Shown here: positions 1,671 to 60,930 of the stretch, piece after piece
Position numbering within the stretch: position 1 is the first letter of the stretch
Layout: every line of letters starts with the position of its first letter
Source of the DNA: Pegea sp. RAD2-039
Lineage: Eukaryota > Chordata > Thaliacea > Salpida > Salpidae
Reading direction: 5' to 3'
Assembly: GCA_034620365.1 (NCBI GenBank)
Contig: JAQGEQ010000244.1
Location: forward strand, 541,778-605,777
Length of the DNA: 64,000 nucleotides
Notes under the pieces: generated by a model
The model's database searches: none
What the model was told of the DNA's origin: nothing
Seen by the model: the letters and a program-made list of their open reading frames with translations, nothing else
Program-made: the position numbers and the translations under genes

Positions 1671-1689
1671 TATCGACCATGGGTCGATA
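1671..1689 (+). repeat. Hairpin palindrome, spacer CATGG
   Basis: TATCGACCATGGGTCGATA. Both arms are perfect, and the spacer extends the pairing to 8 bp with a 3-nt loop. Box 1 lies 76 nt to the left and the CRE-like palindrome 90 nt to the right. Confidence 0.85.
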
Positions 1690-1779
1690 AAATAATTCGA
1701 AAATCAAAACTAAGAAATATAAACAAACCTGCTTTTTAGTTGAAAGTTTCAATTAACAATTAGATGACGTAAATTGCAA

Positions 1780-1791
1780 TTTGACGTCAAA
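1780..1791. repeat. CRE-like palindrome TTTGACGTCAAA (box 3)
   Basis: Perfect 12-bp palindrome followed by TATTT, the intact form of box 3. It contains the TGACGTCA core known as a bZIP (CREB/ATF) site; binding here is only a possibility. Confidence 0.6.
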
Positions 1792-2227
1792 TATTTCTGT
1801 AAATTTTAGTATTGAAATTTTGTAGAGTTTGTTATTTGTCTTTGTAAACAACAGGATAGTGATTCGATTTACAGAAAACTTATGATGACTACTACTTAAA
1901 AATATTTTATTTGAACAGAATATGATTGATCTTAGTGATTAGCAAGATAGTCAATAAATAAATTCAGTATAAACTTTCAGTAGTAAGTTAGAAAATATAT
2001 TTTTTTCAATTTATACTTATAATTTTTCTTTTATTTTCAAATTCTCCAGCGATTTATGAAACATTTTTAGATTAATAGAAGTTAAATTTATCAGTTAATT
2101 TTTTTTCAGCCACAAGATGTCTTTATAATAGTTTTATTTTCATAATTTTAGAGATTATAATTATTCTACCTTTATTTCTACTTGACAAATAGTGCTGCTC
2201 AGTGACTTAAAGATTCCAGTTTTTATA

Positions 2228-2248
2228 CTTCCGCTGCGCCACTCTGCT
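2228..2248 (-). pseudogene. Initiator tRNA-Met 5' fragment (21 nt)
   Basis: The minus strand reads the first 21 nt of the intact tRNA at 58,255, through the D-arm, without mismatch, then breaks off into unrelated repeat. About 60 bases upstream of the tRNA are also shared. It cannot fold as a tRNA. Confidence 0.8.
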
Positions 2249-3890
2249 GAATGCAAAATTGTTATTAGCTAATTATAAAGCTAGAACTTTCTATTAAACT
2301 TCTTTACCTAAATTTATGTAGCTTCGGAACGAGAGACTTGAAACCATTATTATTATTCAATGAAAATTAAAAAAAAAAGTTTTATTTAACTACACTAAGC
2401 AGCAAACTTATGACTAATTAACACATGGCTTATAAATATTCAAAATTTAAATTTTAAACTAAAAAAAGTTTGAAAAAGTATTTGTAGATATTTTAGCAAA
2501 TGTACAAATTTACAAAATGCATTTGATGTTAGCTTAACTAACTGAATTGATTAAAAATTTACTTTTGAAACTAAAATATTTATTTAAGTAAATTCTGGTT
2601 TAAACAGTTTTCCACTAAGTGCCACTATTATTATCTATAAAAAGATAATCTTGAAAATAAAATCTAATAATAATAATATTACAAAGATAATCTTCAAAGA
2701 ACTTTGAGTTTGAATTGAAAATAAAACTACTTTACCAAGTAGCTTTTTGTAACAAACAAAACTGAAATTTTAATAACAAATTTTGTTTGATTTTTAGATT
2801 TAAAGTAGATTGAAACTTTGTAACATGCATTTTGGTGTAATAACAAACTATCAAACTACCTGCTATTTTTTATAGAGATGTTGCCGATTAGAAACGTTTT
2901 CAATTTTTATTCATTTCGTATTTATTTCAAAAAATTTAAGCTTCCTATTTTTTTACTGACAAACATGTTAATATATGAATAAATCTCCTTTCTTACTTTA
3001 ACAAACATAAATAAATCTGAAACTGAAATATATCAAAATGGTTTATTCTATCTTGAATTGTCATTAGCTTATGTAACAAGAATTTAATTTCATTTACTTT
3101 TTTGATACAGCTTAAGCTAAAAATCAAACTAAAAACAAAAGCAGAGTTCAAAGTTGTCTTGAGTTTTCAATTCAATAAAAAAAGTTACCAACTTAATTTA
3201 ACAGAGAAAAATAAAATACGCAAATTAATGATTTATATGTTAAATTATTTATATAAGTAAATTTACTGTTTGCAATTAAGCAAGTTTCAATAAAATTGTT
3301 GATTATACTGATTTTTTAGTTTTAAGCCACCATTTGTACCTTTTTAACTGATTAATTGAGAGGATTTTGGCGTTTTCATGTTTTGTCTTTGTAAAGCGTC
3401 TTTGCTTTGTTTTATGATTTCTAAGATGAATTTTAATAGCAGCATGTCTTTTATGATTTTATTTTTCAAATATTTACAATCAAGTTTTACCACCAGATTA
3501 GAAAAATCTTTAGCCTCTATAAAGATATTTTTACTTATTAAAAACAACAATAAAAAATACGATTTAAAGTTCTAATAGATTATCATTTCTTAATTTTTAT
3601 TGAAGCAATCTGCTGTTATCTACATAATAACATTTTTTATGTAGTGGAATGATGTTTATGTTGCGTTTAATTAAAACCAAATCGTTTTCAGTCTTGAAAA
3701 CTTATTTGAATCACCTGTTTTTATAACACTTAATTAAGTAAAAAAAACCATTAGTAAAAATATACAAAAAAGAATTTCAACCAAATTCTAACTTGAAAAT
3801 TTATTAAGAGTCTGCGTAAACATGTCTTAAACAAAATATTTGCCATTTGTCTCGCTCTTATTAAAGTTTTATACATTAAACTTCAGAAAT

Positions 3891-4484: not shown

Positions 4485-5160
4485 TTTTGTTTTAATATTT
4501 GATTTATAATCATATGATTTCTCTACTATAAATTCATTTGTAATTTATTTATTTATTTTCGTTAAATGTTGCGTCTTAGTGTCGGTTATCAAATTTTAAC
4601 TTAAATCAGTGACTTATAACTTCGAAAGTACGTTTTTAAAAATATGCAAAAATACTTTTGGTCAAAATTAGAAAAATCTCAACTAAGGTTGTCAAAATAA
4701 GCAAAAGCAATTTGTTTTTAAATTTTTTGTCAATATACTAAACTATTCTTATGATTATGAATAAGTCAAATTTGTGAGAAAGAGAATAATTTTCGAAAAA
4801 CAAGATTTTTCCGGACAAGCACTAGATTAAACAACGTTTTATATTAAAAAATATTCCTAGTTATCATTATAAAATACAATGTGCAATATAAATTTTTGTT
4901 ATCGACTACTCGTCGATAGATTAATCCGAAAATAAAAACTAACAACATTAAGTTTGCTTTCAAAGTTAAATCTGCTGGGATGTTTCAATTAATAGAATTA
5001 CATGGCGTGAATATCATTTTGACATCAAATATTTGTCAATTTTCTTGTTTCATTTTGTTTATTATTTGATTTATTTATTTTTTTTTTTAAGCTTTATCCT
5101 TTCACACTGACAACTATGTTAATATATAAACAAATCACTTTTTTCACTTAAGAATTATGA
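4485..5160 (+). repeat. H module, subfamily a
   Basis: The left flank (4,485-4,830) matches 36,935-37,290. Box 1 is at 4,811-4,830, the hairpin at 4,900-4,918 and a box 3 variant (TTTGACATCAAA) near 5,020. The part from 4,800 to 5,160 is repeated in inverted orientation at 43,985-44,330, including the AT-rich tail after box 3. Confidence 0.75.
4900..4918 (+). repeat. Hairpin palindrome, spacer TACTC
   Basis: TATCGACTACTCGTCGATA. Arms perfect; spacer unlike the common CATTT. Confidence 0.8.
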
Positions 5161-5329: not shown

Positions 5330-6240
5330 TCTTTTGCTACCCAATAAATTCCATCATAGATTTACTGGAACAATTGGAAATGTTTGCGATATTCTCCAAA
5401 AAATATAAATAAAATGTTTTTATGTAGTTATCGTTATAAATTTTTGTAAATCAAATAAATAAAAATTACAAATTACAAAAACTTTAATATTCACAAATAT
5501 TTGGAGTTAAATTGAAAATTTCCTCAAGTATTCTTAACAAACGAAATATTCAAGCAATTTTTAATTTGAAAGTTTGCTTGTTACTTGTATTTGTCGGATT
5601 ATTCTATCGACAAATGGTCGATATCAAAAATTGATTATCTAAACTAAACTATACCATTAAAGGCTGAGGAACATTTCTTTTTATAAAAAACCTTCTCATC
5701 TTGTATTTGTCCGGAAATTGAAGTTGAATTCTTTGTAATTTTTTATTATTTAAAAAGTCTGATTTACTGAAAATTTTGCAACGATTCTTAATTCTTTTAC
5801 TATCAATCTTATAGAGAGAGTATTTCCTTCTTCTTAGTAGATAATACATTTTAGTTGTAAACTGTTTAAAGATTTTTTCAAAGTAAGACTATTACTTATA
5901 CTACTTATATAAAGCTAATTGTATAAGTATGAACTAACCTTGTATGAATATTAATAAAGTATTTTTCGTAAGCTCAAAGTCACTGAGCAACACTATTCGT
6001 CTGACAGATAGGAAGGTACAATCTTTATAAGTTTATAAAATATAAACATACGACTAATATAGTGACATCTTGTGACTGAAAAATAAATAGTAAAATGTAA
6101 TTAAATTTTACAAAAGCTTGAATTTAAAGTTTAATCTACTAAACTTTAATAAAAGTGAGACAAATCGCAAATAGTTTGTTTAAGACAGGTTTAATCAGAA
6201 TCTTAATGAATTGACAAGGTAGAATTTGTTTAAATCAGGG
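5330..6240 (-). repeat. H module, subfamily b, inverted
   Basis: Read on the minus strand it has the full order: U near 5,970-6,010, S near 6,060-6,080 (these two precede the rest in module orientation), box 1 at about 5,701-5,714, hairpin at 5,605-5,623, then a decayed end. It stands tail to tail with the subfamily a module at 4,485-5,160. Together with its right flank (to about 6,520) it matches 47,100-48,200. The 66-residue open frame on the minus strand at 5,649-5,849 lies over box 1 and is not kept in other copies. Confidence 0.75.
5605..5623 (-). repeat. Hairpin palindrome, spacer AAATG (CATTT inverted)
   Basis: TATCGACAAATGGTCGATA. Arms perfect; the commonest spacer, in minus orientation. 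Confidence 0.85.
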
Positions 6241-8860: not shown

Positions 8861-8895
8861 TGTTTAATGATCATAGTTTTTACATTTTATATAAA

Positions 8896-8999: not shown

Positions 9000-9590
9000 T
9001 ACAACGACAAATAACAATATCTTCAAAGTTACAAAACTAAAAGATCGACAAATATTTTATGCCAAATTGAAATTCACGCCGTGTAATTTTATAAATTGAA
9101 ACATTCCAGCAGTTTTGAATTTGAAAGTTTGTTGGTATTTCTCTGTTTAATCTTTTTCATTAAGTTATCGACACATGGTCGATATCAAAAAAATTAAAAT
9201 TACGGAATCTATCACAGAGGATTGCGGATTGAGGAAATATCTTTATTATAATTATATCTTTTGATCTAGTATTTGTTGGGAGAAAATAAATTTTTTGAAA
9301 GTTATTATCTTATCATAAATTTGAATTATTCGTAATCATAATAATAGTTATGTTTGTTGACAAAAAAATTAGAAGCAAATTGCTTCTACTAATTTTGATT
9401 TTCTTATTGGAGGTTTTTCTAAATTTATTCGAAAATATTTCTGAACACTTTTAAAAAAAAGTTTTGGAAATTTCAAATCACTAATTTAAGTTAAAATTTT
9501 GTTAAATTTATAGTTAATAAATTTTATTTATTAACTTATTATTAATTAACTTATTAATTTATTATATTAATTAATTTTATAGGTTAAAAA
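9000..9590 (-). repeat. H module, subfamily a, inverted
   Basis: Box 3 variant near 9,050-9,070, hairpin 9,166-9,184, box 1 about 9,265-9,279, then the subfamily a flank with AGAAGCAAATTGCTTCTACT near 9,370. The last 150 bases are plain AT-rich sequence (TTAATTAA-type). Confidence 0.7.
9166..9184 (-). repeat. Hairpin palindrome, spacer ACATG
   Basis: TATCGACACATGGTCGATA. Arms perfect. Confidence 0.8.
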
Positions 9591-10224: not shown

Positions 10225-10243
10225 TATCGACTATTTGTCGATA
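10225..10243 (+). repeat. Hairpin palindrome, spacer TATTT
   Basis: TATCGACTATTTGTCGATA. Arms perfect; box 1 is 70 nt to the left. Confidence 0.85.
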
Positions 10244-14030: not shown

Positions 14031-14949
14031 AACTGTGAAATTAAAAGTTTATAGACTTTAATGATAACTTTTTTAAACCAGTTTATTTCTATCAATAAAT
14101 AAACTTAAGTAGATTTACATAAAGTTAAATGAAAATACTTGCAAAACAAATTAAATTGTTTTTTTTAATTTTTTTGCTAAAGTAAGTTTTTGTAACTCAA
14201 GTCACTATCCTATTGATTAAAAATTTCAAAAACATGAATTTTGACAAATATTTGAGATCAAATTGAAAATCATGCGAAATAATATTTTAAAATAAAACAT
14301 CCAAGTAGTTGTTCAATTAAAACTTTATGTTATTTATTATTTAAATTTGTCCGATATTTTTACCGACAAATAGTCGATATCAAAAAATAAATTTAATGGT
14401 GATTATTAATGTTGAAGTTCATAGAACATTTCTTTATACAAAAAATCTTCTCATCTAGTATTTGTCAGGAAAAAAATAATTTTTAAAATTTTTTATCTAT
14501 TTTAAAAGTTTGATTTATGTAAAACTGTGAGACAATATTTATTTCTTTTGCTATCAATCGTATAAAAGCATATTAAGTACTTGTTAGTGTATAAAACATT
14601 TTAGTTTTAAACTGTTTAATGATTTTTTGAAACTGAAACTTTTACAAATACGATTTATGAAAAGCTAATCGTATGAGTATGAATAAACAATGGCTGGTGA
14701 GCTTATAGTCACTGAGTAACACTATTTGTCTGACAGATAAGAGGAAACAACGTTTATAAAATTATAAAATATAAACTTACAACTTTTATAGTGACATCTT
14801 GTGACTGAAAAATAAATAGTAAAATGCAATTAAATTTTAGAAAATGTTGTAAATGTTTAATTTAATAAATTTTAATAAAAGTGAGACAAATCGCAAATAT
14901 TTTGTTTAAGACAGGTTTACACTGAATCTTAATGAATTGACAAGATAGA
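14031..14949 (-). repeat. H module, subfamily b, inverted (left arm of an inverted pair)
   Basis: Complete minus-strand order: S near 14,791-14,810, U near 14,700-14,745, box 1 near 14,453-14,470, hairpin 14,361-14,379 with one changed arm base (TACCGAC), box 3 near 14,245-14,265. It faces the plus-strand copy that begins at 14,950. Confidence 0.75.
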
Positions 14950-15690
14950 ATTTAATATCCTATCTGTTAGACAAATAGTGTTGTTTGGTGACTTTGAGCT
15001 TCGAAAACATTCTTTATTTATATTCATACAAGGTTTATTCATACTCATACAATTAACTTTATATAAGTAGTATTTGTAATAATCTTAGTTTTAAAAAATC
15101 ATTAAACAGTTTAGAACTAAAATGTATTATGTACTTTGAAGTAAGAAATAGTTTCTCTATAAGCTTGATAGCAAATTAAAAAAGAATTTGTATCACAGTT
15201 TTAAATAACTCAAACTTTTAAAGATAAATCAAATTTAACAAATTCACTTTCTCCAGGCTAATACTTAATGAAAAGATATTTTTTTCACGAAATGCTCCTT
15301 AACCTGTAGATATAAATATAAAACTTCAATATAATATTTGATGTCGACCATTTGTCGATAAAATAATCTGATAAGTACAACTAACAAGTAACAGCAAACT
15401 ATTAAATTTAAAACTGCTAAAGTGTTTTATTTAATAATATTAATTAGGGTGATTATTAATTTGGCATCAAATGTTTGTCGTTCATATAGTTTTTGAATTT
15501 TAAAAAATTTTTTGTTTGTCCTTTTATTCAATGGGATAGTGATTTTATTTACAAAAAATTACGATGACTACTAGCTAAACAATTTTCTTTAAAGAATATC
15601 AATTAATTTATTGGGTAGCAAAATAATTCAGAAAAAATTTACTATAAACTAGCGATAGTAAGTTAACATTATTGTCAGTGATGTAATTAG
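14950..15690 (+). repeat. H module, subfamily b (right arm of an inverted pair)
   Basis: Starts directly inside the U box (about 14,955-15,000), so the S box is missing. It then has worn box 1 near 15,253, hairpin 15,342-15,360 (first arm base changed), box 3 near 15,460-15,480 and box 4-like CAATGGGATAGTGATTTTAT near 15,530. Confidence 0.75.
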
Positions 15691-16420: not shown

Positions 16421-17044
16421 AAACATTAAGAAATTTATGAAATTTTTCTCGAAACATAATTATTCAAATATTTTGGAATTGAAAAATGTTCAATATTAGA
16501 TTCAACTCAGTCATTTTCGAACTTCCAAAACATATTTTGAAAAATATCCAGTAAAAGTTTCGGCAAAAATTAGAAAAAATCTCAAATATGCTAATCAAAA
16601 TTAGCAAAAGCAATTTGATTTTAATTTTTTTTGTTAACACACAAATCTATTCTTATGATTATGAATAAGCAAACTTACGAAATGAGGAAAATCATTTACG
16701 AAAAATATCTTTTCTCCGGACAAACACTAGATATAAAGTAGTTTTTATTATGAATAATATTCCTCAGTACACAAGTTTATATTAAAAAAAAATTATAATA
16801 TTTTTGATATCGACCATTTGTCGATAGAATTATCCGAATAAATCTTAACTTAAACTTCGAACTTGAAAAACACATTTCTACAATTATTCAGAAATAGTTT
16901 CGATCAAAATAAGAAAAATCTCGAATAAGGTAATTAAATTTACTGAAAACATTCCTTATTTCGTTTAATTGTTGTATTTTAGGGTCGTTTACAAAATTTT
17001 AACTTAAATTAGTGATTTGAAACTTCCAAAACTCGTTTTCAAAA
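16421..17044 (+). repeat. H module, subfamily a, followed by a partial second copy
   Basis: Box 1 16,716-16,732, hairpin 16,808-16,826. From 16,860 the left flank of subfamily a starts again, up to 17,044, without its own hairpin. The same order occurs at 40,880-41,500, so this truncated tandem predates the duplication. Confidence 0.7.
16808..16826 (+). repeat. Hairpin palindrome, spacer CATTT
   Basis: TATCGACCATTTGTCGATA, the consensus form. Confidence 0.9.
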
Positions 17045-18295
17045 GTGTGAAAACATTATAAAAATGTTAATTTTGTTTGATACGAAAAGCTACTTGTTAA
17101 GTTAGTATTGTTTTCAATTTAAGCATAATTATCATAATTTCATCAAAGTTTAAAAGTATTTCTTAAAATTCAAGTTATCAAATATCACTAACAAAAACAT
17201 AGCCTAAAGCAATGCAAGGTGTTCAAAATTATCTATCTTCAGCGACTTCTAGCGTCAACTTTTTCTACTATAGAAACATAAAACTGAAAAATCTTTAATT
17301 AAATTTTTATTATTTTTATCAAAACATTTTTACTTACACAAAACAATCAATCTTGCTTAAGTTGTATGAAGTAAATTTTAGTATTTTCTAAAAACTACTT
17401 AGGTTAAAAAGTAAACTATAAATGTTATCCGAAAGACGAATTTATTGTTATTTTAATCGTTACAGTAAAAGAAAAGTTATATAACCAGAAAGAAAAAATT
17501 TCAAATGATTTGTTTCTTTAATCATTATAAGTCAAGATTTAAAGTTTGAAATTTTTCTACAAAAGCTGCAACTTATTCGCAATTTTGTTGTAAAAAATTT
17601 CTACATTAAAAGCATTTTTATCGTTTTTATTAAATATGGTGAGTTTAAATGTTTAATAAGTTCTTAAGTGATTTATATACAGTAAGTTCAGTACTACTTT
17701 TTTTGTAAAGCGTTTACCCACCTGGTATTTTTTCTAATAGTTTACATAATAAAATGCAGAAGAGTAGTGGTGAGACTCAGTTATCTTTGACAAGTCGTTG
17801 ATTGATATTAAGTCTTAGTGATTCTTCGATCTTGTAATTTGACTTACTAATAATTTTAAATTTGTTTTTCATGAATTACAGGATAGTTTGAATGGATATA
17901 AAAATATAAAAAGTAATTTTAAAGTAGAAATTAAGTTTTGTTTAATTCACTATTTACAGTTTCTTTGTTTTTTGACTAATTTGCTACCAACTAACTTTAT
18001 TGATCTTCTCTAAAAAATAAATAGAAAAAATAGTTTTAAGTAGTATTTCTCGTAACTTTTATTAATTCAAATCACAATCCTGTTGATTACAATGACAAAT
18101 AACAATTTCTTCAAAATTTTTAAAATCGACAAACATTTGATGTCAAATTTCAATTCACGGAGTTTAATTTTATTAATTGAAACATTCAAGCTGTTTTAAC
18201 TGTTAATTAATTAATGTCTGTTGGTACTTCTCCGTATAAACCTTCACATTAATTTATCGACAAATGGTCGATATCAAAAATAGAGAACTTTCATT
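17045..18295 (-). repeat. 1.3-kb duplicated segment, inverted copy (G module to hairpin)
   Basis: Reverse complement of 37,255-38,590 and of 61,840-62,945. On the minus strand it runs: hairpin 18,255-18,273, box 3 near 18,125-18,150, a stretch with CTCACCACTACTCTTCTGCA near 17,770, and a G module at 17,050-17,300. No frame is shared by the three copies. Confidence 0.8.
18255..18273 (-). repeat. Hairpin palindrome, spacer AAATG
   Basis: TATCGACAAATGGTCGATA. Arms perfect. Box 1, expected to its right, has been lost to the insertion that follows. Confidence 0.85.
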
Positions 18296-29726: not shown

Positions 29727-29745
29727 TATCGACCATTTGTCGATA
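29727..29745 (+). repeat. Hairpin palindrome, spacer CATTT
   Basis: TATCGACCATTTGTCGATA, consensus form. Confidence 0.9.
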
Positions 29746-31433: not shown

Positions 31434-31450
31434 ATCGACAACTTGTCGAT
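31434..31450 (+). repeat. Subfamily c palindrome, intact
   Basis: ATCGACAACTTGTCGAT: two 8-nt arms around a single C. The orthologous position near 1,230 has decayed on the left arm (ATTGAAAACTTGTCGAT). Confidence 0.8.
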
Positions 31451-31875
31451 AACTCAAAATGAAATAAGTAGCAACTGGTTAATAACCTTATTTCTGAAAA
31501 TTTCAACCAGATTAGAAGAGTCGTATTATCGCGATTTGTAAATAAAAATTAATAGTCGGTTACAAGAAATTGACTTAACTCATTGACTTCAAACTTCGAA
31601 AACAAACTTAAAAAATTTTCCAGAAACAGTTTCGTTCAAAATTAGAAAAATCTCATATAAAGTAATCATACTTACCAAAAGCAATTTGTTTTTATCTCCA
31701 ATGTTAGTATACCAAATCAATATTATGATTATGAATAAATCAAATTTAAAAAAAATCATTTTCGAAAAATAACTTTATTCCGGACAAATACTAGATGTAA
31801 AGAAGTTATTATTATGAAGATGTTTATCTAAAAGATCATATATCTAATATTGCATTTATAAGTGCATAATTTTGA

Positions 31876-31894
31876 TATCGACCATGTGTCGATA
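31876..31894 (+). repeat. Hairpin palindrome, spacer CATGT
   Basis: TATCGACCATGTGTCGATA. Arms perfect; the sister copy at 1,671 has CATGG. Confidence 0.85.
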
Positions 31895-34140: not shown

Positions 34141-34750
34141 GCTGCATTTTACTATTTAATTTTCAGTCACAAGATGTCACTATAATAGTTTTATGTTTTG
34201 TATTTTGTAAACTTAAAAAGTTTAAAACTAAATTGTTTTATGAACGAAAAAGTAGAAAATAATATTTATAAGATTGATAGCAAAAGAAAAAAATCGTTGC
34301 ACAGTTTTAAATAAATCGAAAATTTAAAGATAAATAAAATTCTAAGAAATTCACTTGTTCCTGACGAGTACTAGATGAGAAGATTTTTTTATGTCAATAA
34401 ATGTTCCTTAATGTTTATATAAATTATGCCAATATCAGTTTAAGTTTTGATATCGAAGATTTGTTGATAAAATGATCTGACAAGTAACAGTACACTTTTA
34501 AATTTAAAACTGCTTGAATATTTCATCTAATGATATTAATTGGCGTGATGTTATATTTGAAAACAAATATTTGTCTAAATTCATGTTTTTGATATTTATA
34601 ATCAACAGGATAGTAATTTGATGTTCAAAAACTTTCGATGATTTTCCTTTAATATTTTTTTTGTGGAAATCAATGAATTTATTGGGTGACAAAGTAGACA
34701 AAAAACAATGTTACTACAAACTAGCAATAAGAAATTAAATCAATTTTACT
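34141..34750 (+). repeat. H module, subfamily b, decayed
   Basis: S near 34,165, a direct jump past U to the flank, box 1 near 34,361-34,380 (CCTGACGAGTACTAGATGAG), hairpin remnant TATCGAAGATTTGTTGATA at 34,451-34,469, box 3 remnant near 34,555. The minus-strand frame at 34,504-34,701 overlaps these boxes and is not a gene. Confidence 0.7.
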
Positions 34751-36934: not shown

Positions 36935-38590
36935 GGTTTTGTTTTAATATTTAATTTATAATCATATGATTTCTCTACTATAAATTCATTCTTAAATTAT
37001 TTATTTATTTTCGTTAAATGTTGCGTCTTAGTGTTGGTTATCAAATTTTAACTTAAATCAGTGATTTCGAATTTCCAAAAAACGTTTTTAAAAATATTCA
37101 AAAATACTTTCGGTTAAAATTAGAAAATCTCAAATAAGGTGATCAAAATTAACAAAAGCAATTTGTTTTTATTTTTTTGTTAACATACAAAACTATTCCT
37201 ACGATTATGAATAAGACAAATTTTTGAAAAAGAGAATAATTTTCAAAAAATAATTTTTCTCCGGACAAACACAAGATTAAAAGAAGTTTTTATTTTGAAG
37301 AATGTTTTTCAGTCTTAGTTTGTATTTACTATATTGTTCTGAATATTTTTGATATCGACCATTTGTCGATAATTTAATACGAAGGTTTATACGAAGAAGT
37401 ACAAACAAACACTCAAAGTTTAAACAGCTTGAATGTTTCAATTAATAAAATTAAACTCCGTGAATTGCAATTTGACATCAAATGTTTGTTGATTTTATAC
37501 TTTTGAAACTTTAAAGAAATTGTTATTAGTTGTTTTATTCAACGGGATAATAATTTGAATTAATAAAAGTTACGAGAATAACTACCTGAAAATATTTGTT
37601 CTATTTGTGTTTTAGAGAAGATCAATAAAGTTAGTTGGTAGCAAAGTAGTCAATAAACAATGTTACTGTAAATAGTGAATTAAACAAAACTTAATTTCTA
37701 CTTTAAATTTACTTTTTATATTTTTATATCCATTCAAACTATCCTGCAATCCATGAAAAACAAATTTAAAATTATTATTTAGTTAAATTGCAAGATCGAA
37801 GAATCAATAAAACTTAATATCAATCAACGACTTGTCAAAGATAACTGAGTCTCACCACTACTCTTCTGCATTTTATTCTGTATACTATTAAAAAAATACC
37901 AGGTGGGTAAAAGCTTTACAAAAAAAGTAGTACTGAACTTACTGTATATAAATCACTTAAGAACTTATTAAACATTTATGCTCACCATATTTAATATAAA
38001 AATTAAAATATAATATTAAAAAAATGCTTTTAAAGTAGAAATTGTTCACAACAAGATTGCGAATAAGTTGCAGCTTTTATAGAAAAATTTCAAACTTTAG
38101 ATCTTGACTTATAATGATTAAAGAAACAAATCATTTGAGATTTTTTCTTTCTGGCTTTTTTCTGCTTTTCTCTTACTGTAATGATTAAAATAACAATAAG
38201 TTCGTTTTTGGATAACATTTATAGTTTACTTTTTAACCTAAGTAGTTTTTAAAAAATTCTAAAGTTTACTTAACAAACTTTATTAAACATAAGCAAAATT
38301 GATTGTTTTATGTGAGTACAATGTTTTGTTAAAAATAATAAATAGCTAATTAAAGATTTTTGAGTTTTATGTTTCTATAGTAGAACAAGTTTACGCTAGA
38401 CGTCGCTGAAGATAAATAATTTTGAAACCTTGCATTGCTTCAGGCTATGTTTTTGTAAGTGATATTTGATAAAATGAATTTTAAGGCTTACTTTCAAACT
38501 TTGTTGAAATTACGAATAATTACGTTTAAATTGAAAACAAAACTATCTTAACAAGTAGCTTTTCGTATCAAACAAAATTAAAATTTTTAT
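36935..38590 (+). repeat. H module subfamily a continuing into the 1.3-kb segment
   Basis: Box 1 37,261-37,277, hairpin 37,353-37,371, box 3 variant 37,471-37,490 (TTTGACATCAAATGTTTGTT), then CAACGGGATAATAATTTGAA near 37,542, CTCACCACTACTCTTCTGCA near 37,851, and an inverted G module at 38,360-38,580. This copy lacks the insert seen next to its relatives at 18.3 and 61.6 kb. Confidence 0.8.
37353..37371 (+). repeat. Hairpin palindrome, spacer CATTT
   Basis: TATCGACCATTTGTCGATA, consensus form; box 1 is 75 nt to the left. Confidence 0.9.
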
Positions 38591-39740
38591 AGGAAATTAT
38601 TTTTTTGTTTTAAATATAAAGTACTTTAAAACTTTTTAACATACATTTTATGTAATAAAAAACTATCAAAATATCTACTATTTTACTTTGGTAGATGCTG
38701 CTGATTAAAAACATTTTTAATTTTCATTGTATTTGAGTTTATTTAAAAATATAAAGGAATAATTTCGAATTCAAACCCTTTGCTAATCAATAATAACTTT
38801 TTGATATCGACCATATGTCGATAGATTAATCTAAAAATACGAATTAATTCGAACAAACTTTCAAATTTAAAACTGCTTGGATGTTTCAATTAAAAAATTA
38901 TATTTCCTGAATTACAATTTGACATCAAAGATTTGTTTGTAGAAATTATTGTAATGAAATTTTGAAGAAAATTGTTTTTTGTCGTTTTATTCAACAAGAG
39001 AGCGGTTTGATTCACATAAATACTGTTTGTAATAATTATACTTTTAAAAAATTCTTGGAAAGTTTAAAACTAATTTTGATTATGCACTAAGTAGTAGAAA
39101 ATAGTTTATAAATAATGTAGAAAAGTATTTATGTATATAAATCAATTAATCATTTAAATTCCATAAAGTAAATGAAAACGTTAATTTTGTGTAAATTCAA
39201 TCCATGTAAATTTTGTGTAAAATTCTGTAATTTCTATTTAGAAATTTGTTTTTATTGAGCGTACAAAACATCTTTTTCTAAAATTCATACAAGGTTTTTG
39301 ATACTCATACAATTAATTCAATATAAAAAGGTATTTGTAATAGTGTTAGTTTTAAATCATTTTAAATTTTAAAACAGAAATCTATTATGTAATAAGAAGT
39401 CAAAAATAATTTTTTTATAATATTGATATCAAAAGAAAAAAAAATGTCACACATTTGTTAAAAAACTAACTTTCAAATATAAGTCTAGATTTTAAATCTT
39501 TTCTTGACAAATACAAGATAAAAATCTATTTTTATATCAAGAAGTGTTTCCTAACTTTCATGGCAAGATGTGATATAGATTTCAATCTTTTATATCAACT
39601 ATGTGTCGATAAATTAATTCGTTATTTGAATCTACAAAATAGCTGCATACTTTCAATTTTAAAACTGCTTTGAATATTTCATTGATAATATTACTTGACT
39701 TGATTTTCAATTTTCATTTGATTTTTTCATCATAAAATCT
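38591..39740 (+). repeat. Two worn H-module pieces
   Basis: 38,591-38,760 is the inverted companion of the 7,861-7,980 block. A hairpin at 38,805-38,823 without box 1 is followed by box 3 (TTTGACATCAAAGATTTGTT) near 38,921. A second, decayed subfamily b piece has a U remnant near 39,255, box 1 remnant near 39,503 and hairpin TATCAACTATGTGTCGATA at 39,593-39,611. Confidence 0.65.
38805..38823 (+). repeat. Hairpin palindrome, spacer CATAT
   Basis: TATCGACCATATGTCGATA. Arms perfect although the rest of the module is worn. Confidence 0.85.
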
Positions 39741-40239
39741 GTGTTCGCATTATGCTATTGTGTGTCAGTGAACCATAACAAATCTTTTATTTGCTGCTTT
39801 TTTCAGTCCCAAGATCTCTCTGTTTCGTTTTTGAGTTTGATTTTTCTATTTTACAGAACCAATGTTTCGTGTTAAGATCTGTTAGACCTGTACTTTTTCT
39901 TTTTGAACTTGAGCGTACAACAAACACTTATTAAATGTTCAGAAATATTAACGAGTATAGTAATTTAAATTTTTTTTACATAAAAAACATTTTTAACTAT
40001 AAGAGACTAAACTCTCGTTGTTTAAAATAAATTAAGTGTACATGGAGAATTGAATTTTGAAAAGTGAGTTTTATCCAGACAAATATTATATTAAAGGAAA
40101 TTAATAAACGTTAACAAGTTTTGATAGGCAATTAATTCAGTTAAAGCAATTTGAAATCGACATCTTGTCGATGGACAAAAATCAAATTAGTTGTAAATAG
40201 TTAATAACCTGATTTTTAAAAATATTTTGATAATATTTT
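39741..40239 (+). repeat. H module, subfamily c
   Basis: S remnant near 39,805, U-like block with GTTAAGATCTGTTAGACCTG near 39,870, box 1 remnant near 40,075, palindrome ATCGACATCTTGTCGAT at 40,156-40,172 (one non-pairing position). Confidence 0.65.
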
Positions 40240-41534
40240 TGATTAGTGCCATTGAAAAAGGTTTCATTTTAATTTGTTATTCTTATCATTAGTCATTAGC
40301 AATAATTTTATTTGAATTGAGTTATTTGGTTATCTTCATTCTTTGTTATTTTAACTTCTTTCAACGCAATAAACCAAAAACGCTTTATATTAGAAAATAT
40401 ATACAACAAACGAAAAATAAACTACCTTTATAAAATTATTGCAAACATAACTGTAAATCTAAAAATATTCTAAAGTAAAATTTGTGATTGTAAAGCAAAT
40501 TAAAAAGCATTTTTTGTTAAATTACTGTTTTTAACTGAAAAACAGTTGAGTTGCTTCATTTGCCAATGTTAAATTTTATGAAACAAAACCATTTCGGAAG
40601 AAAATTTATAAAGTTCAAATAGAAAGTTGAAGACAGTTTCATTCAAATCATAACAAGTAGTACATCGACGCTATACTTTAAATAAAAATAAGTCTAAAAA
40701 GCAAAATCAGTGAACCGGAACTTTTAGTCTGGTATGAAGTTTGATTTGATTTCATAAAGAAAGTATGAGTTGAAAATAAAACAGTTGCCTGAACTTATTA
40801 AATCTAAAATCTACTACTTTCTTTAAACAATGTTAAACTTTAAAAATAATGATTGCAATAATTAAAAATAAAATAAAACATTAAGAAAGTCAGAAATTTT
40901 ACTCGAAACATAATTTTGGAATTGAAAAATGTTCAATATTAGACTCAACTCAGTGACTTTGAAAAACATTTTTTGAAAAATATCCAGTAAAAGTTTCGGC
41001 AAAAATTAGAAAAAATCTCAAATAAGCTAATCATATTTAGCAATTGAAATTTGTTTTTAATTTTTTTGGGAGCATACAAATTTATTCTTACGATTATGAA
41101 TAAGCAAATTTACGAAATGAGGAAAAATTATTTACGAAATATATCTTTTCTCCGGACAAACACTAGATGAAAGAAAGTTTTTATTATGAAGAATATTTCA
41201 CAGTATTCAGGTGTATTTGATAAAGATGTAACTATTTTTGATATCGACCATTTGTCGATAGATTAATCCGAAAAATCATTATTTAAACTTCGAACTTTAA
41301 AAACAAATTTTTATAAATATTCAGAAATAGTTTCTATCAAAATTAGAAAAATCTCGAATAAGGTAATTAAAATTACTAAAAACATTCCTTTTTTCGTTTA
41401 ACTGTTGTATTTTAGGGTCGCTTACAAGATTGTAACTTAAATTAGTGATTTGAAACTTCCAAAACATATTGTGTTTCTTTAATTGAAAAATAATAGTAAT
41501 TTGCTTGTAGTCGTAAATCATTGACTGAGAGAAT
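40240..41534 (+). repeat. W module, H module subfamily a, and partial second flank
   Basis: Same order as 15,770-17,044. AGTACATCGACGCTATACT is at 40,659-40,677, box 1 41,152-41,168, hairpin 41,242-41,260, and a truncated second subfamily a flank follows to about 41,480. The minus-strand frame at 41,321-41,521 lies over that flank and is not a gene. Confidence 0.75.
41242..41260 (+). repeat. Hairpin palindrome, spacer CATTT
   Basis: TATCGACCATTTGTCGATA, consensus form. Confidence 0.9.
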
Positions 41535-42239: not shown

Positions 42240-42850
42240 GTCAGAATAAAACTGAATTTAACTAATTATTTGTATTTTTTCCAATATTTGTTTGAATATT
42301 TTTTGTTAAAATGTAAATTGAAAAAGATTTTAAAATATGATTGCAATTTTACTATTTATTTTTCAACCACAAGATGTCACTATACTTGTTGTATTTTCAT
42401 TTTTTTTTTAAATTATAAAGGTTGTATCTTAAGATATGTTCGAGAAATACTGTTGCTCAATGACTTTTAGATTACAAACATTATTTTTCAAGATTTAAAT
42501 CAGTTTTTTTTCAATCTCATAAGTATACGTAGTCGTTTTAGTTTTGAAAAATACTTTTAAAATGTTAATACTAAAACGTGTTATGCACTTAAAAGTAGGA
42601 AATAATTTCTATAGAAGGCTGATAGTAAAAGAAAGATAATTTGTATCAAAGTTTTAAATAAATCAAATTTTTAACGAATTTTTTAGAAACTAACTTTTCT
42701 CCTGACAAATACTAGATGAAAAGATATCTTTATAATAAGAAATGTTTTCTAGCTTTCACCTATTGCATGATCCATATAAATATAAAAATTTTTGATATCG
42801 ACCACATGTCGATAAATGAATCTGATAATAAGAACTAAAAATTAACAGCA
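42240..42850 (+). repeat. H module, subfamily b
   Basis: S about 42,365-42,384, U remnant near 42,440-42,470, box 1 42,701-42,720, hairpin 42,796-42,814. Box 3 is missing, and the module ends in unrelated sequence. The plus-strand frame at 42,270-42,470 runs across S and U and is not a gene. Confidence 0.75.
42796..42814 (+). repeat. Hairpin palindrome, spacer CACAT
   Basis: TATCGACCACATGTCGATA. Arms perfect. Confidence 0.85.
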
Positions 42851-43870: not shown

Positions 43871-44734
43871 AAATTTGAAAAAAAGATAATTATACAAAAG
43901 TTATCAATGAGATAAAAAAATTATATACTTGCATGAAACATTTTACACATAATGAAATTTCAAATTTATTAATAATTTTTAATTGAAAAAAGTGATTTGT
44001 TTATATATTAACATGGTTGTCAGTATGAAAAGATAAAGCTTAAATAATAAATAAATAAATCAAATAATAAACAAAATGAAACAAGAAAATTGACAAATAT
44101 TTGATGTCAAAATGATATTCACGCCATGTAATTATATTAATTGAAACATCCAAGCAGATTTAACTTTGAAAGTAAACTTAATTTTGTTAGTTTTTATTTT
44201 CGATTAATCTATCGACAAGTAGTCGATATCAAAAATTTACATTGGTTAGTTAGGTTCTGAATGATAACTAAGAATATTTCTTAATATAAAAACGTTGTTT
44301 CATCTAGTATTTGTCCGGAGAAAAATTATTTTTGAAAATTATTAGTCATTTAAAAAAATTAAATTATTTAGAATCATAATAATAGTTTTATACGTTGACA
44401 ATAAAAACAAAATAAGTTACTTTTGCTAATTTTATTTAACTTATTTGAGATTTTTCTAATAAGGGTCGTATTTTTTCATGATATTTTTTTAAATTTATGC
44501 TTTGGAAATTCATAGTCGCTAAGTTGAATCAAATTTTTGTAACCGTCCATTAGTTTTTATTTACAGATTTCAATACAAGGGTTATTGAGAAAAGTGTTTG
44601 AATGTTTTGTAAGGTCTGAGTCATTGAGAAAAATTATTTGTCTGACAGATAAGAGGAAGAAAGTATGTTAAAAAGTTTAAATTTACTTTTAAATTCAAAG
44701 CTAAATAAATAATTTGCTTTTAAAATTGTATTTT
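43871..44734 (-). repeat. H module, subfamily a, inverted
   Basis: 43,985-44,330 is the reverse complement of 4,800-5,160: box 3 variant near 44,094-44,114, hairpin 44,210-44,228, box 1 44,301-44,318. To 44,560 the subfamily a flank follows. 44,580-44,680 is a U-box remnant. Confidence 0.7.
44210..44228 (-). repeat. Hairpin palindrome, spacer AAGTA
   Basis: TATCGACAAGTAGTCGATA. Arms perfect; inverted sister at 4,900 reads TACTC where this reads TACTT. Confidence 0.8.
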
Positions 44735-46979: not shown

Positions 46980-48200
46980 AAAATTAATTTACTATCGTTA
47001 GTTTATAGTAGCTTTAGTTTTTAATCATCCTACAACCAAAGAAATTAATTCATATTACTAATAAAAATTCATTTACCTAATAAATTATTAAAGAAAATTG
47101 TTTAGCTAGTAACCATCGAACGTTTTTGTAAATCAAATCACATTCCCATTGAATACAACAATAAACCATAATTTCTTCGAGATTTAAAAACTATAATATC
47201 GACAAATATTTGATGCCAAATTAAAATTCATGCCAATTAATATTATTAAACGAAATAATAAAGCAGTTTTTAATTTAAAAGTTTGCTGTTACTTGTTAGT
47301 TGTATCTGTCGAATTATTCTATCGACAACTGGTCGATATCTAAAATTAAAAATCTTATCATAAATGATAAAAACCATAATGGAAGTCAACGAATATTTCT
47401 TTGTATAAAAAATCTTCTCATCTAGTATTTGTGAGGAAAAAGTGATTTTGTAAAATTTTTAGCTATCTCTGAAAGTTTGATTTATGTAAAACTCTGAGAC
47501 GATTTTTAATTTTTTTTGCTATCAATTATATAGAAAAATAATTCCTACTTTTAGTGCATAAAATATTTTAGTTTTACACTGTTTAGTGATTTGTTAAAAC
47601 TAAAATTATTACAAATACTACTTATATAAAGCTAATTGCATGAATATGAATAAACCTTGTAAGAATATTAATAAAACATGTTTTGTAAGCTCAAAGTCAC
47701 TGAGTAACACTATTTCTCTCACAGATAGGAGGAGACAACGTTTGTAAGTTTAAAAAAATAAACATAAATCTGTTATAGTGACATCTTGTGACCGAAAAAT
47801 AAATAGTAAAATGCAATTAAATTTTACAAAAGTTTCAGTTTAAAGTTCAATTTACTAAACTTTAATAAAAGTGAAAAAATGCAAATAGTTTTTTCAAGTC
47901 AGGTTTACACTGAATCTTAATGATTTGACAAAGTAGAATTTTTTTGAACTTTTTTTATATAATTTATGTAATGTTTTTTTTAAAAATCATTTAAGTGTTA
48001 TAAACACATTTGATTAAAATTAGTTTCTAAGACTAATGAAGATATAAGTTTAATTAAACGCACCATAAACATTATTTCACATCTTTTTAAAATTATAAAC
48101 AAAATGATAACAATATATTGTTTCTATAATAATAAAGAGATAAAAATATTTTACAACTACACATTGCATTTTTATTGTTTTTATAATTTTTTATTAGAGA
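46980..48200 (-). repeat. H module, subfamily b, inverted
   Basis: Partner of 28,235-29,040 and, with right flank, of 5,330-6,520. Box 3 variant near 47,196-47,220, hairpin 47,320-47,338, box 1 47,420-47,436, U near 47,690-47,735, S near 47,777-47,797. A 47-base stretch near 47,080 is absent from the 28-kb copy. Confidence 0.8.
47320..47338 (-). repeat. Hairpin palindrome, spacer AACTG
   Basis: TATCGACAACTGGTCGATA. Arms perfect; the sister at 28,538 has AAATG. Confidence 0.85.
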
Positions 48201-49919: not shown

Positions 49920-50464
49920 AAAATTCTAAAATTATAATTTCGACAAATATTTGATGTCTAATATAAAATTAGTATTTTCAAATGAAATAATCAAGCAGTT
50001 TTTCATTTAAAAGTTTGCTGTTACTTGTTAGTTGTATCTGTCGAATTATTCTATCGACAAATGGTCGATATCAAAAATTAATGTAATATTTGCATGTATC
50101 GGGCTAGAGGTTAAGAAATATTTCTATATATAAAAAAATCTTCTCATCTAGTATTTGTTGGTAAAAAGTGAATTAAAAAAAAAATTTTTATCTTTAAAAG
50201 TTTGATTTTTGTAAAACTGTGAGACGATTTCTATTTTTTTTGCTATCAATCTTATAGAAAAGTATTTCCTTTTATTAGGTGCATAAAGTATTTTAATTAT
50301 AAGCTGTTTTATGATTTTTTAAAACTAAAACTATTACAAATACTTTTTATTGAAAGCTAATTGTATAAGTATGAATAAAACTTGTATGAATATTGATAAA
50401 CAATGTTTTGTAAGCTGAAAGTCACTGAGTAACACTATTTGTTTGACAGTTAGGAGGTTACAAC
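49920..50464 (-). repeat. H module, subfamily b, inverted
   Basis: Box 3 remnant near 49,940-49,960, hairpin 50,052-50,070, box 1 about 50,145-50,160, U near 50,410-50,455. The variable region between hairpin and box 1 matches, inverted, that of the copy at 29,660-29,725. Confidence 0.75.
50052..50070 (-). repeat. Hairpin palindrome, spacer AAATG
   Basis: TATCGACAAATGGTCGATA. Arms perfect. Confidence 0.85.
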
Positions 50465-55184: not shown

Positions 55185-56110
55185 GAAAATCTTAAAAGCA
55201 AAAAGTTATTAAAAATCATAGTGAAAATCATTAACAAAGCAAAAAATGATTTACAAAAAGAAAGCTGTTAAAACAATTGTCACAATTAAATAACTTGAAA
55301 ATTTCATTTGATAATGCATTTATTCCGATAAATTCAATAAACTCCGATAAAAGCACTTTTAAAATTGAAAGTTTGTTCGATTAAATTCTTAATTTTGGAT
55401 TAATCTATCGACATATAGTCGATGTCAAAAATGTTTACTTGATTGTAGTATTGTCTTAAACCGAGGATTATTTTTCAATATAAAAATGTTTTTTTATCTA
55501 GTATTTGTCTGGAAAAAAAATATTTTTCAAAAATTCATTTCATAAATTTGAATTAATTATAATCATAGTAATAATTTTGTATGTTGACAATAAAGATAAA
55601 AGCAAATTGCTTTTACTAATTTTGATTATCTTATTTAATATTTTTCTAAATTTGATCAATTTGATTAATTTGATAAATTATTCCTTCATATTTTTAAATA
55701 AACTCAAATACAATGAAAATTAAAAAAGTTCTTAATCGGCACCATCTGCCAAAGTAAAATAGTAGATAGTTTGATAGATTTTTATTACATAAAAATGTAT
55801 GTTACAAAGTTTAAAGTTATTTTGCATTTAAAATAAAAAAATAATTTCCTATAAAAATTTTAATTTTGTTTGATACGAAAAGTTACTTGTTAATTTAGTT
55901 TTGTTTGCAATTTAAATATAATTATCATAATTTCATCAAAGTTTGAAAGTAAGCCTTAAAATTCAAGCTATCAAATATCACTAACAAAAACATAGACTGA
56001 AGCAATGCAAGGATTTCAAAATTATCTATCTGTAGCGACGTCTAGCGTCAACTTTTTCTAATATAGAAACATAAAACTCAAAAATCATTAATTAAATTTT
56101 TATCATTTTT
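55185..56110 (+). repeat. 0.95-kb duplicated segment, copy 2
   Basis: Partner of 7,310-8,260. The hairpin here is TATCGACATATAGTCGATG at 55,406-55,424 (one arm base changed), better kept than in the partner. The G-module core GACGTCTAGCGTC is at 56,037-56,049. The 72-codon TTG-start frame recurs at 55,505-55,723. Confidence 0.8.
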
Positions 56111-56569: not shown

Positions 56570-57429
56570 TGATTTACTTTCGCTAGTTTATAGTAATTTT
56601 GCTTTTAAATCATTTTGCTACCCAATAAATTAATTAAATTGTTTAAAAAATTAGATTAGCATGTAATCATCGTAAGTTTTTGTATCAAATCAGGATTTTA
56701 ATTGAATACAACGACAAACCACATTTTTTTCAAAAATCAAAAATTATATTATTGACAAACATTTGATGTCAAATTAATACTCACAACAATTAGTTTTATT
56801 AATTAAACTATTCAAGCAGTTTTAAATTTAAAAGTTTGCTGTTATTTGTACTTGTTAGATAATTTTATCGACAAATGGTCGATAACAAAAATTGTATCTC
56901 ATGTGATTCAGTATCATAAAGGTTAAAGAATATTTCTTAATATAAAATTATCTTTTCATCTAGTATTTGTCAGGAGAAAAGTTAGTTTCGATTTTTTTTT
57001 TAAGTTTGATTTATTTAAAACATTGAGACAATTTTGATTTCTTTTGTAAATAATCTTCTAAATAGATGAGTTCCTACTTCTTGGTGCGTTTTAAATTTTA
57101 GTTTTAAAGTTTTAAATTATTTTTCAAAATTAAAACTATTACATTTACTTTTTTCTAAAGGTAATTGTATGAACTAAAAAAAAAACTTATTTGTATGTTA
57201 AAAAATAATTTTTTGTAAGCTCAAAGTCATTGAGTAACACCATCTGCCTGAAATATAGGAAGATACAACGTTTATAAGTTTTTAAAAAATAAACATAATA
57301 CTGTTATAGTGACATCTTGTGACTGAAAATTAAATAATAAAATAAATTAAATAATTATTAAAACTCAATTAAACTTTACAAAAGTTTAAATTTAAAGTCT
57401 TACCTAGTAAACTTTAATAAAAGTGATAT
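56570..57429 (-). repeat. H module, subfamily b, inverted
   Basis: Box 3 variant near 56,753-56,775, hairpin 56,866-56,884, box 1 56,957-56,974, U near 57,219-57,262, S near 57,308-57,328. Confidence 0.75.
56866..56884 (-). repeat. Hairpin palindrome, spacer AAATG
   Basis: TATCGACAAATGGTCGATA. Arms perfect; the usual ATATC continuation is changed to ATAAC. Confidence 0.85.
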
Positions 57430-58406: not shown

Positions 58407-58414
58407 TTTTTTTT
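58407..58414 (+). terminator. Pol III terminator (T8)
   Basis: First T-run of four or more after the tRNA, 80 nt downstream. A T-run stands at the same place in the copy near 21,750. Confidence 0.6.
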
Positions 58415-58689
58415 AATGTTTAATTTTTTCTTCTTCTCACCATTCTTTCATATACTATACTCAAATTTGTTTATACCTATTAAAGCTTGAGCTTATCTTA
58501 CAATATTTTTTTATTCACTTCTAAATGGTGTTTTCAAAAAACTAAATTTGAGTTTAAACCTAAATAAATTCAAAGACTTATAAATAATTTATTAGTGATT
58601 TAAACAACTTTTTTTAATTATCTTTAATTATTTATATATTTTTTTTTTCCATTCAAATTTAAATTAAAGTTTATTTGAAAACAAAATTC

Positions 58690-59470
58690 AACAGCTACAG
58701 TTTGTAGGTCTATATATGTCATAACGATTTAATACTCAGAATTATAAATTTTAATTTAAAGTGAAATTTTTCATAAAAATTAGTTTGATAAATGCAACAA
58801 CAAGTATATAACCTAATATTAAAAATATTCTCAAATATTTTAACTAAGAAAAGTTTTCTGTTTTACATAAGACACATCAATTTTACCAAAAAGTCCCCAA
58901 AATACTTAACAATTACGCAAACATTTAGAATGTTATCATGAAATGATTTTTAGCACACATTAGCGTACTGCAAGAAAAGGCTTTATAGATGGAAAAGTCA
59001 AATAAAAATTATAAAATTGTATTTAGAATTCAACTTCTAGTGAAAAGACAAAAATTATAATTGCTTTCTTAATTTCTAAAAATTTGGTTTTAATTTTGAA
59101 TAAGTTTTATTTATGTTTAGTTCTCTTCTCAAAAATGTTATTTTTATATCATTAGTAAATTCAAGTAAACTTAGTCATTATATAATATTTTTGAAGTATC
59201 ACTTATAAACATTATATCAAATATTACTCTAACTGATTAGTAGAAATTTTGTTAGGTTCTAACTACTTTTCTAAAATATTAAAGTAAAAACTCTGTAGTG
59301 ACATCTCCTGTTTGAAACTTGTATAGTAAAACACAACTACTTCTTTTTCCTCTTTTCAATTAACTAAAAGTATTCTGTTAATATCAGGTTTTTCATGAAT
59401 TGCCACATAATTGGAAAGAGTGAAAAAAAAAATTATAAGATTATACATTTAAAAAAATCACTATCGCTAC
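58690..59470. other. Unique AT-rich stretch
   Basis: No module apart from a faint S remnant near 59,300 (GTGACATCTCCTGTTTGAAA). No gene seen. Confidence 0.45.
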
Positions 59471-59960
59471 TTTGAATAAATTTATTTATTGATTTTTTGA
59501 TAACCAATAAATTCCATCATAGGTTTACCTGATCAATTGGAAATGTTTGCGATATTCTCAAATAAAAAAAATAAAAGGTTTTTAAGTTGTAATTATCGTA
59601 AGTATTTGTAAATCAAATTAATATCCCGTTCATTACAACAATATATAACAATTTTTTCAAAATTTTAAGATTATAATATAGACAACTATTTGATGTCAAA
59701 TTACAAATCATGCCAAGTAATTTGATCAAATGAAACTTTTTTAGCAAATTTAAATTCAAAAGTTTACTTCGAGTTTTTATTTGTAAATATTGGATTTAAT
59801 TATAAACAAATGGTTGATTTCAAAAATATCAAGCTGATCGAAGCTATCATACCAAGAGTTAAGAACATTTATTCTTATAAAGATATCTTTTCATCTAATA
59901 TTTCTCAGGAGAAAAACTTGCCTTTAAAATTTTTATTTTTCTTCAAAACTTTGATCAAAA
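59471..59960 (-). repeat. H module, subfamily b, inverted, decayed
   Basis: Box 3 near 59,683-59,705, hairpin remnant TATAAACAAATGGTTGATT at 59,801-59,819, box 1 remnant TCATCTAATATTTCTCAGGA near 59,892. Confidence 0.65.
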
Positions 59961-60599
59961 TTAGAAAATATCAAATAAAGTAATCAAAATTAGCAAAAGC
60001 AATTTGCTTTTATGTTCTTTGTCATTATACAAAACTATTCTTATGAATATTTGTGAAAATTTGTGAAAAAGAGAAAAATTTTGGAAAAATTAGTTTTTTC
60101 CGGACAAACACTAGATGAAAAGAAGTTTTTAATATGAAGAATATTCTTCAGTATCAGATTAGATCTTCTACTAGATATACTAGTCGGTTATTTTTCATAT
60201 CCACCATTTGTCGATCAATTAATGGGAAGGCTTAAACGGAGAAGTACAAACAAGACAAAGTTAAAACAACTTGAATGTTTCAATTAATAAAATTAAACTC
60301 CGTGAATTGCAATTTGACATCAAATGTTTGTCGATTTTATACTTTTGAAACTTTAAAGAAATTGTTATTTGTTGTTGAATTCAACGGGATAGTAATTTGA
60401 ATTTATAAAAAATTATATGCTTGAATTATAGAATTATGTTTTTATATTTTTATATCCATTCAAACTATCTTGCAATTAAAAAAAAAAGAATTTAAAAATA
60501 TTAGTGAGTTAAATTACAAGATCGAAGAATCACTAAAAATAAGCATCAAACATTAACTTGTCAAAGATAACTAAAAATTTCTTAAGAATCTATTAAACA
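59961..60599 (+). repeat. H module, subfamily a, and a piece of the 1.3-kb segment
   Basis: Box 1 is intact at 60,100-60,119 while the hairpin is worn (TATCCACCATTTGTCGATC at 60,198-60,216). Box 3 TTTGACATCAAATGTTTGTC is near 60,314. 60,440-60,570 is a shortened piece of the 37,730 block. Confidence 0.7.
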
Positions 60600-60930
60600 T
60601 TGAAAGTCACATAAAAAAAATTAACCTTTATTATGGAAGAATTTAAAAGAGACCTAATTTTTAATATCGACCATTTGTCGATAAAATAATCCAACAAATA
60701 CAACTAACAAATAACAGCGAACTTTAAAATTTAAAACTATTTGAATGTTTTAATTGAAATAATTAATTGACGTGATGATCAATTTGACATCAAATATTTG
60801 TCGATATTATAGTTTTTGAATTTTGAAAAAGTTGTGGTTTATCGTTGTATTCAATGGGATAGTGATTTTATTTTAAAAAATTACGATGGTTACTAGCTAA
60901 ACGATTTTCTTTTAAAAATATCAATTAATT
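60600..60930 (+). repeat. H module right half, subfamily b
   Basis: Hairpin 60,665-60,683, box 3 TTTGACATCAAATATTTGTC near 60,782, CAATGGGATAGTGATTTTAT near 60,852. Box 1 is missing. Confidence 0.7.
60665..60683 (+). repeat. Hairpin palindrome, spacer CATTT
   Basis: TATCGACCATTTGTCGATA, consensus form. Confidence 0.9.

Follow-up and report, generated by a model that had tools for sequence, protein, structure and literature searches.

The TATA-type RNA polymerase II promoter combines an upstream dimer site, a sequence-free stretch, a TATA-like run and an initiator-like block, with near-fixed spacing between the parts. In flies, the CGATA sites of the DRE/BEAF type include the DRE, which is a contiguous TATCGATA, and in baculoviruses the repeated near-palindromes of the hr type are enhancers bound by dimers. 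Here we analyse a palindrome, TATCGAC-N5-GTCGATA, that recurs through 64,000 nucleotides of the salp Pegea sp. RAD2-039 (assembly GCA_034620365.1, contig JAQGEQ010000244.1, positions 541,778 to 605,777 of the forward strand). This whole stretch, hereafter the window, forms the final 64 kb of the contig termed C266 (605,777 bases). The palindrome stands at a near-fixed distance from a second conserved block (block 2), and a sister form of it lies in zinc-finger arrays elsewhere in the genome; both points are new with respect to a preliminary description of the same DNA. The parts follow the order of a TATA-type promoter and differ from it in that the modules far outnumber the intact genes seen. 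The TATCGA half-site resembles that of the fly sites, whereas here 7 bases separate the halves, which show polarity and go together with block 2. Repeated near-palindromes are also what the baculovirus hr elements consist of, whereas the present copies are chromosomal, noncoding and diverged, and a pattern of the palindrome plus TCAAAAA gave no match in viral contigs.

Two nematode systems offer a parallel in distribution. The meiotic pairing centres of Caenorhabditis elegans are bound by the HIM-8/ZIM zinc-finger proteins, as stated in an excerpt of PMC8455136; measured against that excerpt, the salp sites likewise represent a short motif repeated many times within one chromosomal region, whereas they have in addition a sister core outside that region and a two-part, promoter-like structure. 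The dosage-compensation motifs MEX and MEX II, by an excerpt of PMC10076027, are enriched up to 12-fold and up to 30-fold on the X chromosome of C. briggsae; to judge by the same excerpt, these too are short motifs concentrated in one part of a genome, whereas here every listed exact site falls in one block. With somewhat less than even confidence, we take the palindrome to be one half of a two-part, promoter-like cis-regulatory element, which is borne on repeats and would be read by a protein dimer.

The palindrome in the window and in the genome

With both arms exact, the palindrome was found 19 times in the window and not once in 100 dinucleotide shuffles, at all 19 of the starts given in the preliminary description. 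When up to three mismatches were allowed, the window held 33 palindromes against 0.92 expected (the largest shuffle had three), and eight of the 14 inexact sites carried one or two mismatches, in agreement with the "at least seven" worn copies counted earlier. Coordinates are given below with the strand of the side that bears TCAAA and block 2, and with the spacer oriented accordingly.

Ten of the exact sites have the spacer AAATG, at 5605..5623 (+), 16808..16826 (-), 18255..18273 (+), 28538..28556 (+), 29727..29745 (-), 37353..37371 (-), 41242..41260 (-), 50052..50070 (+), 56866..56884 (+) and 60665..60683 (-). The right side of the copy at 29727 is nearly identical to that of the copy at 50052, whereas the left side is not. 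The remaining exact sites are at 1671..1689 (-, CCATG), 4900..4918 (-, GAGTA), 9166..9184 (+, ACATG), 10225..10243 (-, AAATA), 31876..31894 (-, ACATG), 38805..38823 (-, ATATG), 42796..42814 (-, ATGTG), 44210..44228 (+, AAGTA) and 47320..47338 (+, AACTG). One mismatch is present at 14361..14379 (+, AAATA), 15342..15360 (-, AAATG), 39593..39611 (-) and 55406..55424 (+, ATATA), and two at 34451..34469 (-) and 60198..60216 (-). Two further sites, with one mismatch at 31433..31451 (-) and two at 40155..40173 (-), belong to a second family, M2.

By our own tally from the list of exact sites, the 19 spacers take 11 forms as written and nine after orienting, CATTT and AAATG (five each as written) being one spacer on opposite strands. 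Among 71 aligned copies with at most two arm mismatches, 32 have the spacer AAATG, 69 have T at position 4 and 57 have A at position 3; therefore, the spacer is not free. The earlier view of a free spacer in about ten forms, with CATTT the commonest, holds in that the spacer varies but not in its freedom, and CATTT is AAATG on the opposite strand. The palindrome is also polar: one side starts with TCAAAAA in most copies, and the other ends near ATTA(A/T)T(T/C). The flanks, described before as hard to align, are indeed diverged (about 65% to 92% identity in the pairs listed) but can be aligned and share this polarity.

The genome-wide count that had been proposed as a check gave 226 exact palindromes in 105.7 Mb (387 contigs) against none for a reversed control, and the wider pattern with up to three mismatches gave 474 places against five. 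A literature search found no paper on the motif among the titles listed, which does not show that the motif is unpublished.

Distribution of the sites among contigs

Two spacer classes were listed in full (91 AAATG sites and 54 others, together 145 of the 226), and all of these are on contigs C91, C95, C254 and C266; the first 100 of the 474 near-match places listed add C103. On C254 (626,489 bases) the listed sites end at 209 kb, and on C103 (334,154 bases) the single listed site is at 4.3 kb. The modules, which cover nearly all of the sequence on the block side, disappear at about 215.2 kb on C254 and at 7.2 kb on C103, and G+C rises across these edges from about 0.22-0.25 to 0.31-0.37. Inspection of the two edges revealed no obvious insertion ends, and a transposable element may lie directly beside the edge on C103. 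The block would amount to about 1.36 Mb, bounded by two edges, if C91, C95 and C266, which were sampled only, are wholly of this kind. When nine 4-kb stretches of other contigs were compared with the window, none matched it at E<=1e-6. TTAGGG repeats were found only on C125, C139 and C342, and the contigs are not placed on chromosomes.

The orientation of the AAATG form across the block looks random, with 47 forward and 44 reverse copies, and many copies lie inside kilobase-scale duplications. A back-to-back pair of palindromes about 701-705 bp apart, a spacing counted by us from the site lists, recurs in the window (4900/5605) and on C91, C254 and C266, apparently within a duplicated unit. 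At 222-228 kb and 260-271 kb of C91, palindromes with ACATG or GCATG spacers follow one another about every 5.2 kb, which suggests a larger tandem unit. Fragments of reverse-transcriptase-like open reading frames (ORFs) were seen by eye near the ends of block contigs, in locus L034 at the start of C95 and in positions 1-750 of L043 on C103.

Conservation of the arms in the H module

Copies of the module H read, when oriented, ...CGGATTATT-TATCGAC-AAATG-GTCGATA-TCAAAAATT-(variable)-...TATAAAA...TTTTCATCTAGTATTTGTCNGGA; one example, as aligned, spans 5466..5741 (+), with the palindrome near its centre. A profile trained on 26 window copies found 77 matches in 253,057 bases of the block and none in the outside stretches searched alongside. 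The core common to the copies fades by about -150 and +150, beyond which the flanks differ, and the palindrome is central in the module, not terminal. In the 75 copies that cover the palindrome, all 14 arm bases are retained in 50 and at most one is changed in 66. Mean heterozygosity across these copies is 0.062 and 0.076 in the two arms, 0.283 in the spacer, 0.342 in 60 columns on the left and 0.557 from +10 to +60, the most variable columns.

A tree was built from 60 of the 77 copies (17 were dropped for gaps) on an alignment of 284 columns, with the palindrome columns excluded. The arms took 1.14 and 1.43 Fitch steps per column, compared with 5.23 for the left flank, 3.44 for the stretch that holds the TATA-like run and block 2, and 12.4 for the variable stretch, and the arms were the two lowest of 278 seven-column windows. 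When only G/C columns were counted, the arms had 1.67 steps against 7.55 elsewhere, whereas the five spacer columns had 6, 7, 2, 2 and 7, two of them being nearly as slow as the arms. The arm conservation claimed in the preliminary description thus withstood the comparison on a tree suggested there, the arms evolving more slowly than the flanks.

Ascertainment through the palindrome itself was ruled out as the cause by profiles made from one flank only, with the caveat that some bias may remain because the training copies were first found via the palindrome. The left-flank profile gave 66 hits, 59 of which reach the site, with arms exact in 39 and at most two mismatches in 53; the right-flank profile gave 82 hits, 75 reaching the site, with the corresponding numbers 45 and 62. 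Between the members of 21 sister pairs, the arms differ in five of 294 cells, the left flank in 74 of 1210, the far left in 57 of 1684 and the variable stretch in 144 of 1077. Therefore, the copies seem to be constrained where they are located, by a large margin in relation to the near flank and the variable stretch.

Two more sites, noticed by eye near -120 and +102 relative to the palindrome, have GACAAAT in common with it; they read TCGACAAATATTTGATGTCAAATT and CGGACAAATACTAGATGAAAA, the latter reversed, and look as though a single protein had three binding positions.

A second block at near-fixed distance

Block 2, ATCTAGTATTTGTCNGG, was found at 90 sites with at most two mismatches in the block loci examined. 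The palindrome core, also with at most two mismatches, was present upstream of 72 of them (roughly 33-123 bp were searched), and in 68 of these 72 pairs the distance was 72-82 bp, across the most variable sequence of the module. Between palindrome and block 2, length is preserved far better than sequence. An example, ATCTTGTATTTGTCCGG, lies at 5698..5714 (+), one base off the consensus and after a TATAAAA run. The family M2 has the same palindrome core followed by TTCAAA, then sequence that we were unable to align and a ATCTAGTATTTGTC-like block, as in the module at 31298..31455 (-), which holds the palindrome and a stretch like block 2.

A genome-wide search with block 2 gave 298 places, and the first 100 listed include contigs C60, C89 and C93. 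When 16 of the places on these three contigs were fetched, 15 read (A/T/C)ATCGAC-AGATT-(G/A)TCGATT followed by TCAA or CCAA, and the remaining one had a CAACAA repeat in place of the palindrome. Since these sister palindromes, which differ in the outer base, are on C60, C89 and C93, the palindrome core is not unique to the block. Both parts are common to all three families (H, M2 and this third one, Z), which we were unable to align outside these parts.

Matches to C2H2 zinc fingers are dense on C60, C89, C255 and C254 (326-612 kb), with many stop-free frames several kilobases apart, in a scan that scored 150 of 1014 candidates and gave at least 252 matches; C93 has one C2H2 among the matches listed. 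C254 is common to the block and to a C2H2 array, which lie about 110 kb apart, and the block itself contains zinc-finger copies, some of them broken. Beside C2H2-like sequence on C125 (282825-285900, locus L033), a partial match to small-subunit (SSU) ribosomal RNA was observed, on a contig that starts with telomere repeats; a full eukaryotic SSU rRNA gene is present in the genome, as are C2H2 fingers with TGEKPY linkers.

Interpretation and alternative explanations

In the promoter-like reading, a protein dimer would bind TATCGAC-N5-GTCGATA (core ATCGAC-N5-GTCGAT), with polarity provided by the spacer and the adjoining TCAAA. The second part would follow about 75 bp on, in H as a TATA-like run and then block 2, so that the whole would be built like a promoter, from a dimer site placed upstream, a free stretch and a TATA/initiator-like block; this last block, at near-fixed spacing from the palindrome, is a promoter-type trait that is present here. 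The carriers would be old dispersed repeats, H and M2, filling about 1.36 Mb, and the sister family Z in C2H2 arrays elsewhere, selection apparently maintaining the copies where they lie. Binding by a protein, activity as a promoter and driven transcripts are what we infer from these patterns. The layout of a dimer-bound site, proposed before, fits as far as the arms are constant in sequence and not in pairing, and has to be amended for a partly constrained spacer and a polar site. A wider possibility, which we regard as unlikely, is that one bipartite cis-code links the C2H2 arrays with the gene-poor block, a protein derived from the arrays or controlling them both marking and co-regulating the domain via hundreds of sites borne on repeats.

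Several observations weigh against a promoter-like element. Block 2 has no palindrome core upstream at 18 of its 90 sites, and at 18255 and 60665 the palindrome is present without the usual right side, which differs there from that of other modules. The TATA-like run is clear in H, whereas M2 and Z have only a TATTAAT-like sequence. A search downstream of the modules gave no consistent gene start: of 16 block-2 places listed on C60, two (370304+ and 539138-) precede a zinc-finger match of the same orientation by about 1.9 kb, whereas the others do not fit in our reading, and no obvious exon was seen by eye in the 1.6 kb after one of the two. The modules, counted as the 474 palindrome places with up to three mismatches, far outnumber the intact genes seen in the block. 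Moreover, the difference between the arms (1.7%) and the far-left flank (3.4%) in sister pairs is modest, so that the test for selection in place depends on the reference chosen.

The main rival is selection through mobility, in which the modules are non-autonomous mobile elements whose palindrome and block 2 are needed by a transposase or as a retroelement promoter, so that intact copies spread. We consider this rather unlikely, if less so than the other alternatives. It would account for hundreds of copies dispersed in both orientations, for a common core that fades at about 150 bp on either side into differing flanks and for related modules on other contigs. It fits less well with a palindrome that is central, with the many copies carried inside kilobase-scale duplications and with arms that are kept on terminal branches and between sister pairs, where a uniform decay would be expected of dead copies, even if the margin over the far left is modest. 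The boldest alternative is a role in marking a domain, by which a chromosomal protein, perhaps of the C2H2 type, would recognise the block of about 1.36 Mb, comparable to the pairing or dosage sites of nematodes. The confinement of the listed exact sites to C91, C95, C254, C266 and C103, the passage from nearly full to no module cover on C254 and C103 and the C2H2 matches on C254 from 326 kb are all as such a role would have it; the sister palindromes on C60, C89 and C93 and the pairing of the palindrome with a promoter-like partner are not, and we judge it quite unlikely.

Recombination at the palindrome, either at a crossover site of the tyrosine-recombinase kind, with which it shares inverted arms around a short spacer, or at a break hotspot, is very unlikely in our view, and the breakpoints cut both ways. 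Some copies resemble chimeras with a switch at the palindrome. In eight of nine non-overlapping mosaic pairs (59 copies) the best breakpoint lay between -20 and +30, against 28.5% of 2429 detected simulated breakpoints, and among longer alignments eight of 58 mosaic ones break from 0 to +25 of the centre against 1.9 expected. However, none break just left of the centre (1.5 expected), the eight breakpoints on the right are not independent, and the variable stretch beside the palindrome draws breakpoints toward it. Homology ends just right of the centre in 25 cases against 6.5 at 80% identity or more, but this excess shrinks to seven against 3.6 at 85% and six against 1.9 at 88%, with other bins as high. 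The correlations of left and right distances between blocks show no drop at the palindrome, and Phage_integrase (PF00589) had no match in the genome (control, 14 of 14), in a search that could miss Crypton/DIRS types and split exons; the tyrosine-recombinase version of the earlier proposal is accordingly weakened. An RNA hairpin, in which the arms pair as a 7-bp stem with a 5-base loop, is extremely unlikely. RNAalifold predicted exactly this hairpin and nothing else from 24 copies, but in none of the seven pairs is a change kept on both sides (covariation term, 0.18), and almost every arm change in the 75 copies affects one side only, the sole double change to a standard pair being in two near-identical copies.

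A coding origin was rejected: one spacer frame was suggestive, but the arms lack synonymous freedom and there is no periodicity. None of 421 segments showed 3-base periodicity at P<1e-3, in a test of limited power because the known ORF was not among the 25 lowest P values, and indel cells in multiples of three outside that ORF numbered 2490 of 19629. A known RNA family was likewise rejected, only a tRNA reaching the gathering score.

Repeats of such age and divergence are commonly regarded as inert, and here two short constrained blocks are legible within them. Live sites would offer a test of how repeats spread a regulatory code over a megabase and of the control of large zinc-finger arrays; if mobility is all that the sites serve, a repeat superfamily is nevertheless defined by a clear recognition element.

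Neighbouring genes and other features

A single-exon ORF of 778 amino acids (aa) at 24174..26510 (-) is a neighbour of the modules and not part of the element. It has 62 matches in the genome, pieces being counted apart, of which 34 are on the contigs of the block; 10 of these 34 are full length without internal stops. Intact paralogs of 47-51% identity are present on C67 and C75, and others of 30-36% have frames of 426-478 aa, the family extending over C67, C75, C87, C26 and other contigs. Outside this genome only four ENA proteins match; a Pfam search with the protein gave no match, and its predicted structure had a predicted local distance difference test (pLDDT) score of 38 with four sequences. 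In loci L011, L013 and L018 a C2H2 ORF, either whole or broken, lies head to head with the 778-aa ORF, and none was found beside the window copy. The family is an orphan gene family that has been amplified in the block, where both intact and broken copies are present. A ciliate code was rejected, the ORF being open under the standard code, and so was a viral origin, there being no confirmed relative of the ORF and no match of the pattern in viral contigs.

Elsewhere in the block, a long repetitive open frame of 1027 codons was noted on C91 near 281 kb (locus L021, 1099-4179). The window also contains a short array of an 18-base unit at 8894-8967 and, inside the repeat block, a lone tRNA-Met gene at 58255-58326.

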